Shown in pieces: positions 500 to 4,638 of a stretch of DNA of 5,019 nucleotides. This stretch comes from Thermoplasmatota archaeon. GTDB taxonomy: Archaea > Thermoplasmatota > Thermoplasmata > Thermoplasmatales > Thermoplasmataceae. The position numbers were made by a program, and so were the translations under genes. The stretch spans positions 4,098-9,116 of the forward strand of contig JAMDCG010000012.1 in assembly GCA_023489425.1 (NCBI GenBank), read 5' to 3'. The notes under the pieces were generated by a model. It was not told where the DNA came from, did no database searches, and was given only the letters and a program-made list of their open reading frames with translations. Every line of letters starts with the position of its first letter. The first letter of the stretch is position 1.

Positions 500-619
500 A
501 TGTGTTCTGATTGTTTCGAGGAGCAGTGCACATGCGAATACTGCGTGGAATACAGGCATCAGCAGGCATGCCCCGTATGTGGTCACCTTGTATTCCTGGA
601 CTGCTGCCAGGGATTTTAG
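500..619 (+). CDS. Small cysteine-rich protein, probably zinc-binding (39 aa)
   Basis: A frame from ATG at 500 to TAG at 617-619 encodes 39 residues, of which nine are Cys (2, 5, 10, 12, 15, 24, 27, 34, 35) and two are His (20, 29). The ligand pattern is C-x2-C-x4-C-x-C-x2-C-x4-H-x3-C-x2-C-x-H-x4-C-C and includes a typical zinc-ribbon knuckle, CPVCGH (residues 24-29). There are enough ligands for two metal sites, but a cross-brace arrangement is only an inference. There is no signal peptide or membrane segment, so a cytosolic role is expected; the function and partner are unknown. The frame stays open upstream to an ATG at 368, but that start would overlap the divergent membrane gene. The ATG at 500 has a TATA-like box at 472-479 at the right spacing. 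The cysteine density is far above what a chance frame would give. An alternative reading is a remnant of a larger zinc protein. Confidence 0.65.
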   Translation: MCSDCFEEQCTCEYCVEYRHQQACPVCGHLVFLDCCQGF

Positions 620-707: not shown

Positions 708-717
708 AATTATATTT
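708..717 (+). promoter_or_regulatory. TATA-like box for the potassium channel gene
   Basis: The stretch AATTATATTT is centred about 26 bases before the TTG at 739, with A-rich sequence just upstream that could act as a TFB recognition element. The spacing predicts transcription starting within a few bases of the start codon, so the mRNA would have almost no leader. There is no Shine-Dalgarno sequence before the start codon. Confidence 0.55.
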
Positions 718-738
718 CCAATCTGAAATTATCCATGG

Positions 739-1767
739 TTGGTTGACCTACAGACATTCATATTAAGGGTAAAAAAGGCATTAAAACACAATATAGGTAA
801 AACTATACTTATGGCAGTGTTAGTACTAATATACAGCGTGTTCTCTGAATATTACATAGAAAACCCAATTGGAAGCTCCGGCATTCACTCTCTTTTCGAA
901 TCACTCTGGTGGACAATGCAGACAGTTACGACGGTTGGGTATGGGGACGTAACAATTGTTGGATTCATGGGAAAATTAAATGCCATATTCATAATGATTA
1001 TCGGTGTGGGAAGTTTCAGTCTATTGCTCGTGTCAATAGGGGCTGAACTTATAGACGCCAAGCTTCTCAGAAGATTTGGAGAGGTGAGAACAAAAATGAA
1101 GGATCATGTAATAATATGTAATTATTCAGAAAAGCAGGCAGACATAATTGAGGCCATAATGAAGGATAAGAATCCCTTTATAGTACTTGGTCAGGATCCC
1201 CCGGCAAAGGAAAAGGAAAACATGGAGTTTGTGAAGGGAAACCCCCTGGATTATAATGACCTCAAGAGGGCTGGTATTGAAAACAGTCACACAGCAATAA
1301 TTTTTCCAAACGAGAAATATGGCTCAGAAAATTCACTTGCTGTAGATGCTGAATCGATTCTTATCGTGATGACAGTCAAAAAATTAAATCCGGAAATCAA
1401 CACGATTGTGGAACTCATGAATAAATCAAGCAGAGAGCATGCCATTGAATCAGGCGCAGACGAAATTATAGTGAGAGGGGATATGAGTTCCTCAGCTATT
1501 GTTAAACTGATAAATAATCCCGGGTCCTGGAAATTCATTTCAAAAATATTTTCTCAGTCAGACGGCATGGACTTCATAGAAACAACAGAAGATGATTATA
1601 AGGGAAAAAGTTTCAGTGAACTATACCGGTCAGTGGAAAATGACTGGAGGAAAATAATTGCCATTAGAAAGGGTGATGATTACCTGTTAAGGCCTGATGA
1701 GAACTCTATATATCAGGGAGAATTACTCATTATTCTGGAGAAATCCAAGAAAACAATGAAAAATTAA
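739..1767 (+). CDS. RCK-domain potassium channel, MthK type (342 aa)
   Basis: This is a ligand-gated potassium channel subunit of the two-transmembrane class. Segment 1 spans about residues 20-39. The pore helix and selectivity filter follow at about 53-70, with the filter signature TVGYGD at 65-70. Segment 2 spans about 80-104 and carries glycines 89 and 91 as possible gating hinges. The rest is cytoplasmic: an RCK N-terminal (TrkA-N) Rossmann domain from about 121, beginning DHVIICNYSE, then an RCK-C (TrkA-C) domain from about 265 to the end. The length is close to that of MthK. The nucleotide-binding GxGxxG of TrkA is not present; as in MthK, the loop is C-x-x-S-E. The start is TTG at 739, because an in-frame TGA at 724 limits the frame and no ATG occurs in frame before residue 25. 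A strong Shine-Dalgarno sequence inside the gene precedes Met120, suggesting a second, soluble product. The channel presumably supports potassium balance across the cytoplasmic membrane; the gating ligand is not evident. Confidence 0.93.
   Translation: MVDLQTFILRVKKALKHNIGKTILMAVLVLIYSVFSEYYIENPIGSSGIHSLFESLWWTMQTVTTVGYGDVTIVGFMGKLNAIFIMIIGVGSFSLLLVSIGAELIDAKLLRRFGEVRTKMKDHVIICNYSEKQADIIEAIMKDKNPFIVLGQDPPAKEKENMEFVKGNPLDYNDLKRAGIENSHTAIIFPNEKYGSENSLAVDAESILIVMTVKKLNPEINTIVELMNKSSREHAIESGADEIIVRGDMSSSAIVKLINNPGSWKFISKIFSQSDGMDFIETTEDDYKGKSFSELYRSVENDWRKIIAIRKGDDYLLRPDENSIYQGELLIILEKSKKTMKN
1081..1087 (+). promoter_or_regulatory. Internal Shine-Dalgarno site before Met120 of the channel
   Basis: GAGGTGA is a seven-base match to the complement of the conserved 3' end of archaeal 16S rRNA (anti-Shine-Dalgarno CACCUCC) and lies eight bases before the ATG at 1096. 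The main start of the gene and most other starts in the window lack such a site. It would direct synthesis of the free RCK domain. Confidence 0.6.
1096..1767 (+). CDS. Probable internal-start product: soluble RCK subunit (223 aa)
   Basis: Starting at ATG 1096 (Met120 of the channel), the same frame gives 223 residues containing both RCK-N and RCK-C but no membrane segment. The start falls exactly between the end of transmembrane segment 2 and the first RCK beta strand (DHVIIC). In MthK of Methanothermobacter, an internal start at the equivalent junction (Met107) gives soluble RCK subunits that pair with the tethered ones to form the eight-domain gating ring; this is established for MthK. Here the inference rests on the position and on the Shine-Dalgarno site at 1081-1087. 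The alternative is that the site is coincidental and both RCK layers come from other genes or from domain rearrangement. Confidence 0.5.
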   Translation: MKDHVIICNYSEKQADIIEAIMKDKNPFIVLGQDPPAKEKENMEFVKGNPLDYNDLKRAGIENSHTAIIFPNEKYGSENSLAVDAESILIVMTVKKLNPEINTIVELMNKSSREHAIESGADEIIVRGDMSSSAIVKLINNPGSWKFISKIFSQSDGMDFIETTEDDYKGKSFSELYRSVENDWRKIIAIRKGDDYLLRPDENSIYQGELLIILEKSKKTMKN

Positions 1768-2256: not shown

Positions 2257-4638
2257 ATGGAAGTTCTAAACTACTGGATAAAACTGGAATATGATCACAG
2301 CAACAAGACATATAGTGGAAAGGAAAAGATACAGCTTGAAGGAAAGGAAGACAAACTAATTCTGAACACTCTGGAACAGAAAATAAGCAAGATAACTCTT
2401 GACGGAAAGAATGTGGAACTTCTGGCAGGCAGGAGGGACGACGAAAAGGTGATCGAGGCAAAATTAAATGGAAAATCACTTCTTGAAATCGAATTCACTT
2501 CAAAACTTAATGACGCATTAACTGGACTTTATCTGGCAAGGGCATCAGACGGCTCAGAGATGGCAACTACCCAGTTCGAGTCCATAGGTGCCAGAAGGGC
2601 GTTTCCATGTTTTGACAATCCATCCATGAAAGCAACTTTTGATATAGAGATCACCACAGGCTCAGATCTTGATGTGATTTCCAATATGCCTGAAAAGGAG
2701 GTAGTCAAATCAGGCAGCGTGAAGACTGTCAAGTTCCAGAGAACACCAAGAATGTCAACCTACCTTGTTTACATAGGAATAGGAAAGTTCGAGACAAAGG
2801 AGAGCAGCTTTGAAAATGTAAAGTTATATCTTTCTGGACTCAGGGGAAACCTTGATACTACAGATTTCCCTCTGGTAATGGCAGCACAGTCTCTCGAATT
2901 TTTTAACAAATACTTCGGGATAAAATACCCATTGCCAAAGATGCATCTCATATCTGTTCCAGAATTTGCAGCAGGTGCGATGGAAAACTGGGGCGCAATA
3001 ACATTCAGGGAGGTTGCAATCCTGGTCAACAAGAGTACCGGAGGGGCAACAAAAAAGAGGGTTGCAGCTGTAATTGCTCACGAGATAGCACATCAGTGGT
3101 TCGGGAACCTTGTAACAATGAAATGGTGGAATGATCTGTGGCTGAATGAGAGTTTTGCAACATTCATGATGTATAAGGTCGTGGAAAATTACTATCCTGA
3201 ATGGAAGGTTACCGGTGATATGCTATTATCAAGGGGAAGAGGGGCTTTCACCGATGACTCACTTGAAAGCACTCACCCAATAGAAGCTAATGTGAAGGAA
3301 CCTGAAGAAATTGAGCAGATATTCGATCAGATAAGCTATGGAAAGGGGGGAATGATCCTGAGAATGATTGAATCCTACGCAGGCAATGAGAGCTTCCAGG
3401 ATGGGTTACACAATTATCTGGAGAAATTTTCATACTCAAATGCAGAAGGACAGGACCTCTGGAAAAGCATTGCTAAATCATCAGGAAAGCCGGTTGATAG
3501 AATAATGGAATCCTGGGTGAAGAGGGAAGGGTACCCCATGTTGAAATTAAAATATGATTCCAACAGGATAAAGATAACCCAGTCAAGGTTCTATCTTGAT
3601 GGCAGGGAAGGCAGGGATATATGGCCTGTTCCACTTACTGTTCTGAGGGAAAACGGCGTAGAAAGCAACCTTATGGAAACAAGGGAAATCACGATTCCAG
3701 GAGATGGATTTGTCAAGCTGAACGTTGGAGAAACAGGATTCTATAGGGTACTTTATCCTGAGGAATTTTACGCAAACATTTACAGCAGATCAGAAAAGCT
3801 CGACTACAAGGATTTCATAGGAATACTGTCTGATCTTTATGCATTTGTTGTATCCGGGAAGATAGATCTAAAGGTATACCTTGATGTGGTAAAGCAATTC
3901 TCAAATTCCTCAGATCTTAATGTTGTAACCCAGATATCAAACGACCTGGCAGAATTGAGAAACATATTAACATCCAGCAACGCCCTTGATGAAACGTACC
4001 TAAACTTCCACAGGGAGCAGGTAAGGAGACTCGAAGCAAAGAAATCAACAGACGTAAATGATTCCATTCTATACGGAACAGTACTCAGAAGACTTGTTGA
4101 TGTTGATGGCGAGAAGGCAGGGGAAATGGCTGCAAAATTCAAAAATATGGAAAACGAAATTCCCGATATAAGAGATTCCATAGCAGTTGCATATGCAAAG
4201 GAGACAAAGAACCTGCAGGAAATACAAAAGAAGATGTTTGCACTTAAGAGCGATGAAGATAAGGTAAAGCTCATAGTGGCCGCAGGGCATATTCCAGGGG
4301 AGGACGCATTCAATTCAATGTACGGTCTGATAGAAGAGGGAAAGATAAAGAAACAGGATGTGGCTTCATACTTTACCTCATTTGGGGCCTATAGAGAGAA
4401 CAGGGACCTTGCGATGAAGGAATTCGGCAAAATGGTTTCAAAACTTCAGGACATCTTCAGTGGATCTGGAACCGCATCAAACCTGGTCTTTGCCCTTGCA
4501 CCCCTTGTTGGCCTTAACAGGGTTAAGGAAATGGAAACTCTTCTAAACAGCATACGAAATCCGAAGGTGGAAAGAGGAATAATGAAAGGCATGGAAAGAC
4601 TGAAAATAAACCAAAAACTTCTGGATAGAATGCAGTGA
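2257..4638 (+). CDS. M1-family zinc aminopeptidase, tricorn-interacting factor F2/F3 type (793 aa)
   Basis: This cytosolic metallo-aminopeptidase removes N-terminal residues from short peptides; in Thermoplasma the F2 and F3 enzymes finish degradation of proteasome and tricorn products to free amino acids. All M1 hallmarks are present. TQFE at 105-108 and GAMEN at 240-244 bind the substrate N-terminus and backbone. The zinc site is HEIAH (275-279) with the third ligand Glu298 in NES, exactly 18 residues after His279; Glu276 is the general base. Tyr361 in SYGKGG is the expected transition-state tyrosine. Domains in order: N-terminal beta domain (about 1-170), thermolysin-like catalytic domain (about 170-425), small beta sandwich (about 425-510) and C-terminal helical domain (about 510-793). 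The length is full for the family, there is no signal peptide, and the frame is intact. The sequence recalls F3 somewhat more than F2, but substrate preference (acidic or basic) cannot be assigned by eye. There is no tricorn or proteasome gene in the window. Confidence 0.96.
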   Translation: MEVLNYWIKLEYDHSNKTYSGKEKIQLEGKEDKLILNTLEQKISKITLDGKNVELLAGRRDDEKVIEAKLNGKSLLEIEFTSKLNDALTGLYLARASDGSEMATTQFESIGARRAFPCFDNPSMKATFDIEITTGSDLDVISNMPEKEVVKSGSVKTVKFQRTPRMSTYLVYIGIGKFETKESSFENVKLYLSGLRGNLDTTDFPLVMAAQSLEFFNKYFGIKYPLPKMHLISVPEFAAGAMENWGAITFREVAILVNKSTGGATKKRVAAVIAHEIAHQWFGNLVTMKWWNDLWLNESFATFMMYKVVENYYPEWKVTGDMLLSRGRGAFTDDSLESTHPIEANVKEPEEIEQIFDQISYGKGGMILRMIESYAGNESFQDGLHNYLEKFSYSNAEGQDLWKSIAKSSGKPVDRIMESWVKREGYPMLKLKYDSNRIKITQSRFYLDGREGRDIWPVPLTVLRENGVESNLMETREITIPGDGFVKLNVGETGFYRVLYPEEFYANIYSRSEKLDYKDFIGILSDLYAFVVSGKIDLKVYLDVVKQFSNSSDLNVVTQISNDLAELRNILTSSNALDETYLNFHREQVRRLEAKKSTDVNDSILYGTVLRRLVDVDGEKAGEMAAKFKNMENEIPDIRDSIAVAYAKETKNLQEIQKKMFALKSDEDKVKLIVAAGHIPGEDAFNSMYGLIEEGKIKKQDVASYFTSFGAYRENRDLAMKEFGKMVSKLQDIFSGSGTASNLVFALAPLVGLNRVKEMETLLNSIRNPKVERGIMKGMERLKINQKLLDRMQ

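Follow-up and report, generated by a model that had tools for sequence, protein, structure and literature searches.

This locus raises the question of how a potassium channel with a single RCK domain is supplied with an eight-domain gating ring, and whether one gene can provide both of the proteins required. For MthK, a passage of PMC9440719 gives the internal start and the eight-domain ring as fact, and a methods passage describes the purification of the free RCK domain (M107-A336) from E. coli cells in which the wild-type gene was expressed (PMC2573919). According to a passage of another paper, an internal start is required by most single-RCK channels of prokaryotes (PMC3510474). However, the internal start of MthK is called a proposal in a passage of PMC2920069, which also refers to an opposing result on E. 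coli Kch: removal of the putative internal start reportedly left expression and function unaltered (Kuo 2003, as cited there). Kch resembles the channel analyzed here in combining a channel and an RCK domain with a putative internal start (PMC2920069, same passage).

The window, a stretch of 5,019 nucleotides from an acid-loving archaeon, contains a full-length channel ORF (739..1767, + strand) encoding 342 amino acids from a TTG start, with two TM segments, a K+ filter and one RCK domain. The two-TM pore with its TVGYG filter was recognized by PF07885 (Ion_trans_2, 9.5e-13), and the single C-terminal RCK domain by PF22614 (2.3e-13) and PF02254 (2e-9). The selectivity filter TTVGYGD (928..948, + strand) corresponds to residues 64-70, which are invariant in a 13-row alignment. 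MthK is the best PDB match of the channel by sequence (3.2e-21). Among named relatives, the protein search placed one from Cuniculiplasma sp. closest (P0004, 77%); it also gave P0055 (named Picrophilus oshimae) and P0075 (Ferroplasma), and the channel of a related genome, G051, is 89% identical to that of the window. The neighbours of the channel are a tRNA-Leu(GAG) (1799-1883, +), an M1 aminopeptidase (2257-4638, +) and an OFeT_1 iron permease (3-458, -). A 39-residue cysteine-rich, zinc-ribbon-like protein, which reads MCSDCFEEQCTCEYCVEY...CPVCGHL...CC, is encoded at 500-619 (+) from an ATG at 500; it lies within a longer mechanical ORF (368-619) for which no Pfam match was found, and it is also present upstream of the channel in L010. 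A three-codon frame, ATG GTT GGT TGA (735-746, +), overlaps the TTG of the channel in another frame and is found in L010 too, but is absent from L011.

A leaderless TTG start for the membrane form had been proposed by an earlier sequence-only reading of this DNA. A TATA-like element, TTATAT (710..715, + strand), read by eye, has its centre about 26 nt 5' of the TTG, and the sequence around it, GAAAAATTATA, was also found 5' of the TTG in L010 and L011. Among the relatives inspected, four (L010, L011, L012 and L014) have a TTG start at the same place. These signs in the sequence suggest that the mRNA of the membrane form is leaderless. According to a passage of a review, leaderless mRNAs are widely used in Thermoplasma (PMC7531240). 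In G051, an SD of at least 5 bases precedes 38% of 66 operon-type genes (start within 30 nt of the previous stop) and 6% of 199 genes standing apart, both rates being rough since the first ATG was assumed to be the start. The difference indicates that the SD is a real signal in G051, so that a leaderless-looking TTG combined with an internal SD-led start fits the apparent translation of first and later cistrons in this lineage.

Within the channel gene, the Shine-Dalgarno sequence GAGGTGA (1081..1087, + strand) covers the codons of Glu115 and Val116 plus the opening base of the Arg117 codon, with a predicted duplex of -11.8 kcal/mol. As the sequence-only reading had stated, eight bases (1088-1095) separate it from an ATG (1096-1098) that forms codon 120, in frame with TTG 739 and located at the TM2-RCK junction. 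Its claim of a seven-base match also held on the 16S tail of the relative G051: since this rRNA ends ...GGATCACCTCCT, GAGGTGA is an exact 7-base complement of the anti-SD. The proposed internal start (Met120) would open a nested 223-residue soluble RCK subunit (1096..1767, + strand), with the frame and stop of the channel. Such an arrangement is rare. In 400 kb of G051 (276 ORFs), none of 2280 internal in-frame ATGs has GAGGTGA 5-10 nt before it, 15 have an SD match of at least 7 bases and two (0.0009) have a duplex as strong as that of the window. GAGGTGA itself is common, with 26 copies on both strands of the same 400 kb, and the rarity lies in its placement. The spacing in the window is 17, counted from the base aligned with A1 of the SD; in G051 operons (15 genes) the commonest spacing is 14 and the range is 11-19. 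The predicted RNA accessibility at the site ranks 43 of 299, only a little higher than the average of the gene and not a convincing signal. A 6-bp inverted repeat (1064-1069/1085-1090) that could pair with part of the SD was considered as a regulator and dropped, because L010 has TGCGAA where the second arm needs TGAGAA. By eye, no TATA-like element from which an internal promoter could give a leaderless RCK mRNA was seen about 26 nt before 1096.

We consider it highly probable that these features reflect an internal, SD-led start from which a free RCK subunit is made. One frame of the channel gene would then give two proteins. Ribosomes starting at TTG 739 would make the membrane channel subunit, and those recruited by GAGGTGA would start at ATG 1096 and make the 223-residue free RCK domain. 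As the sequence-only reading suggested, the two modes of initiation might set the ratio of the products. The free copies would pair with the tethered copies, and four channel subunits with four free RCK domains would form an eight-domain gating ring. We infer both the presence of the two proteins in the cell and the stoichiometry of the ring.

If the second product is made, the SD and start should be retained beyond what the codons need, which the sequence-only reading had offered as a check among orthologs. An order-level search of 117 genomes gave matches in 86. Loci were read from 64 of these, 47 carrying fused channels and 17 split ones; the other 22 gave weak matches of other channel types, judged by length and E-value, and were left out. 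The fused set comprises 53 channel genes, that is, the window and 52 loci, in 24 clusters at 70% identity. L062, a fragmented gene, was left out of the SD counts, L053, where the start codon is absent, out of the resampling, and L053 and L054 out of the tree; L054 entered the SD counts through its first frame only. Within 11 residues at the junction, 19 of the 24 cluster representatives contain an ATG whose SD duplex reaches dG <= -7 kcal/mol (17/24 when an SD match of at least 5 bases is used instead), while intervals elsewhere in the gene have an SD-led ATG in at most 3/24 clusters (mean 0.34). At the level of sequence and of selection, a putative internal start is present at the TM2-RCK junction.

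The SD-like bases might nevertheless be a by-product of the protein, the linker residues (Gly-Glu-Val-Arg...Met) being kept for their own sake and their purine-rich codons resembling an SD by constraint or chance. The linker often contains Gly-Glu/Arg and Met, and the synonymous test on the window gene alone was not significant (p = 0.13), so it is the whole set that is decisive. When synonymous codons were redrawn from the same gene with the proteins fixed, the real mean dG of the 24 clusters was -9.63 against -6.79 +/- 0.42, and none of 2000 draws was as strong; in this test the best linker ATG was taken where there were several, which is a source of bias. A per-residue test on fixed columns is free of that bias. 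It gave a z of -7.4 at residue 120, with the SD excess peaking at residues 118-122, while the 285 positions outside 113-126 had a mean z of -0.29 (SD 1.15, minimum -3.6). The highest synonymous SD signal outside the junction lies at alignment residues 283-286 (z -3.6 at 285). Moreover, the SD is spelled differently from gene to gene (GAG GTG A, GGG AGG T, AAG GTG A, AGG AG, GGT GAT, GGGGAG GTG A, AGG AGG) and is encoded by different amino acids in different lineages. In one clade of 14 genes (SH-aLRT 99), residue 120 is Glu and an ATG stands at codon 117 instead, behind GGTGAT or GGTGAG, so that the Met has shifted along with the SD. An origin in protein constraint or chance is strongly disfavoured by these results, and we regard it as very improbable. 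The Met column itself does not discriminate: Met120 is present in 17/24 clusters and is conserved no better than Met60, Met86 or Met211, which would fit a protein constraint, and for this reason it is the SD, rather than the Met, that carries the case for the internal start.

Over the set, therefore, SD and start are kept beyond codon need, but the ortholog check also gave exceptions, in which the SD is altered or weak or the start is missing. L010 has an SD of 6 bases, and in L011 it is weakened to 4 contiguous bases (dG -7.6). The SD is weak in L019, L020, L033, L060 and L061, L053 lacks a start codon at the junction, and L024, L025, L027 and L055 have GTG or TTG only. Of the 19 positive clusters, five are near the threshold (L032, -7.1; L051 and L052, -7.2; L021, -7.7; L054, -7.9), and for L051 it was ATG115 that was counted and not ATG120. 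Of 52 genes that have a linker start, 14 contain one other internal ATG whose SD is at least as strong. L060 and L061 are second channel paralogs of the genomes G062 and G063. Neither has a good SD ahead of Met120, and the reading frame of L061 is broken by TAG and TAA codons. Disappearance of the internal SD may be tied to paralog decay.

A related group of channels has a different arrangement. In 17 genomes (L063-L079), a separate RCK gene follows the channel. Its start abuts or overlaps the channel stop (-23 to 0 nt) in the 16 that were resolved (L078 was not), with SD duplexes of -9.3 to -17.0 in these 16, and the encoded protein starts with the same first strand of the RCK domain (MIVCGYN...). 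At the junctions of the split channels, an SD-led ATG at dG <= -7 was found in 0 of 17; a GTG at -7.1 is present in two of them and an ATG at -6.4 in one. The excess of SD at the junction, with a z of -6.5 in the 24 fused clusters, is absent from the 12 split clusters (z -0.45). Among 99 loci, of which L001-L004 repeat genes already counted, one RCK frame was found in 81 and two in the 17 split ones, while L054 has one frame cut in two. No second, separate RCK frame was found in the fused loci within the flanks scanned (about 0.8-1.5 kb, shorter at contig ends). The window has one RCK frame only, and lacks the separate adjoining gene of a two-gene RCK ring of the TM1088 type. The split channels have TLGYYP or TLGHYP-like filters where TVGYGD is found otherwise, and thus may not be K+-selective.

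These loci bear on two other explanations. An SD-like sequence directly after TM2 and ahead of the cytosolic domain could slow elongation and give time for membrane insertion, the Met being incidental. However, a pause does not need a start codon, yet an ATG stands at a usable spacing in most genes and shifts with the SD in one clade; and the split channels, which have the same TM2-RCK layout, show no SD excess. That the split lineage lacks the excess and the fused loci lack a second RCK frame argues against pausing, which we judge to have little probability, and for a need of free RCK subunits. The internal start could also be used to make a free RCK domain that acts away from the ring of the channel, perhaps by binding a Trk-type transporter or by serving as a sink for free ligand. 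Free RCK/KTN proteins are known as gates of Trk and Ktr transporters, which lends this proposal some plausibility. Against it, a single gene would yield both products, and the RCK gene of the split lineage adjoins or overlaps the channel gene (16/17 resolved), as expected for the parts of one complex; a role elsewhere seems to us very unlikely. A free RCK subunit that joins the ring of its own channel remains the preferred reading. Since the split channels are distant from that of the window (best E 3e-8 to 4e-15), that one solution replaced the other is something that we infer.

A class-wide draw of 400 genomes gave matches in 65 of them, and 24 distant homologs beyond those already counted were read. 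Eight of the 24 have an SD-led ATG (dG <= -7), five of them at codon -3 from the His of the first RCK strand and three (L142, L144 and L150) at -8. Three more have an SD-led TTG. In the remaining 13, neither an SD-led ATG nor an SD-led TTG at dG <= -7 was found, and no second RCK frame was present in the flanks scanned; free RCK may be encoded elsewhere in these genomes, or dispensed with. Universal conservation of the internal start was consequently rejected. The start lies 10 codons before the His of the first RCK strand in MthK, 8 in some distant relatives, 6 in the Ferroplasma/Picrophilus clade and 3 in the window, and is thus seen at no fewer than four places along the linker. It appears reasonably probable that evolution keeps the supply of free RCK and not the site of the start: the start has moved, mostly with its own SD among the genes read, and a related lineage has a separate cistron instead. 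The start of MthK would then be native to archaea and not an artefact of expression in E. coli.

The claim of the sequence-only reading that Met120 stands at the same place as the internal start of MthK was incorrect by seven codons, since MthK Met107 aligns with Phe113 of the window channel, and Met120 aligns with Lys114 of MthK. Both starts precede the first RCK strand (His117 in MthK, His123 in the window), which makes the design alike and the site different. The core of that reading, an internal SD-led start for a soluble RCK subunit, passed the comparative test that it had proposed, while the position it took over from MthK differs. A structure model of the 223 residues from Met120 has an RCK-like fold (mean pLDDT 87.3, pTM 0.69), with the first strand at window residues 124-127. 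In Foldseek it matched MthK chains best (E about 1e-15), at TM-scores of 0.45-0.49 and an rmsd of about 14 A; these values show that the placement of the lobes in the model differs or is uncertain. The Ca2+ site of MthK comprises D184, E210 and E212, the first and last of which are also named in PDB titles. These residues align with S199, E225 and M227 of the window channel (1333-1419), so that two of the three (D184 and E212) differ and the Ca2+ site of MthK is not retained.

Several known systems are comparable. MthK has, like the window channel, a 2-TM pore and one RCK domain, and its internal junction Met yields the free RCK (passages of PMC9440719 and PMC2920069). In Thermotoga maritima, according to a passage of PMC4380455, TM1088A and TM1088B are two RCK polypeptides that form one octameric ring and are expressed from one promoter; the start and stop codons overlap, and an internal RBS (GGGAG) serves the second, an arrangement that resembles the split lineage L063-L079. 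Unlike the window, TM1088A/B is a TrkA transporter regulator made of two different proteins, while here one frame would be read twice. A further parallel is Cas11b of Haloferax volcanii, made from cas8b: an internal in-frame ATG with an SD-like sequence gives the C-terminal part, which is a subunit of the complex (passage of PMC11899642). That case concerns an unrelated protein of a CRISPR gene and was tested by experiment, whereas the start in the window is predicted from sequence. In the open-access literature, our search found nothing on codon-level conservation or movement of the internal start of RCK channels, and searches there on TvoK and CglK gave nothing on SD conservation in RCK channels.

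By its sequence, the window channel would join the MthK kind, and what is new is evidence suggesting that selection keeps the internal start in native archaea. The understanding of how single-RCK channels are supplied with an eight-domain ring rests on MthK. Codon-level selection for an internal RBS across an archaeal order, together with the split lineage, speaks independently for both production of and a need for the second product in native cells, and the same codon-level signal predicts, gene by gene, where that product may start.
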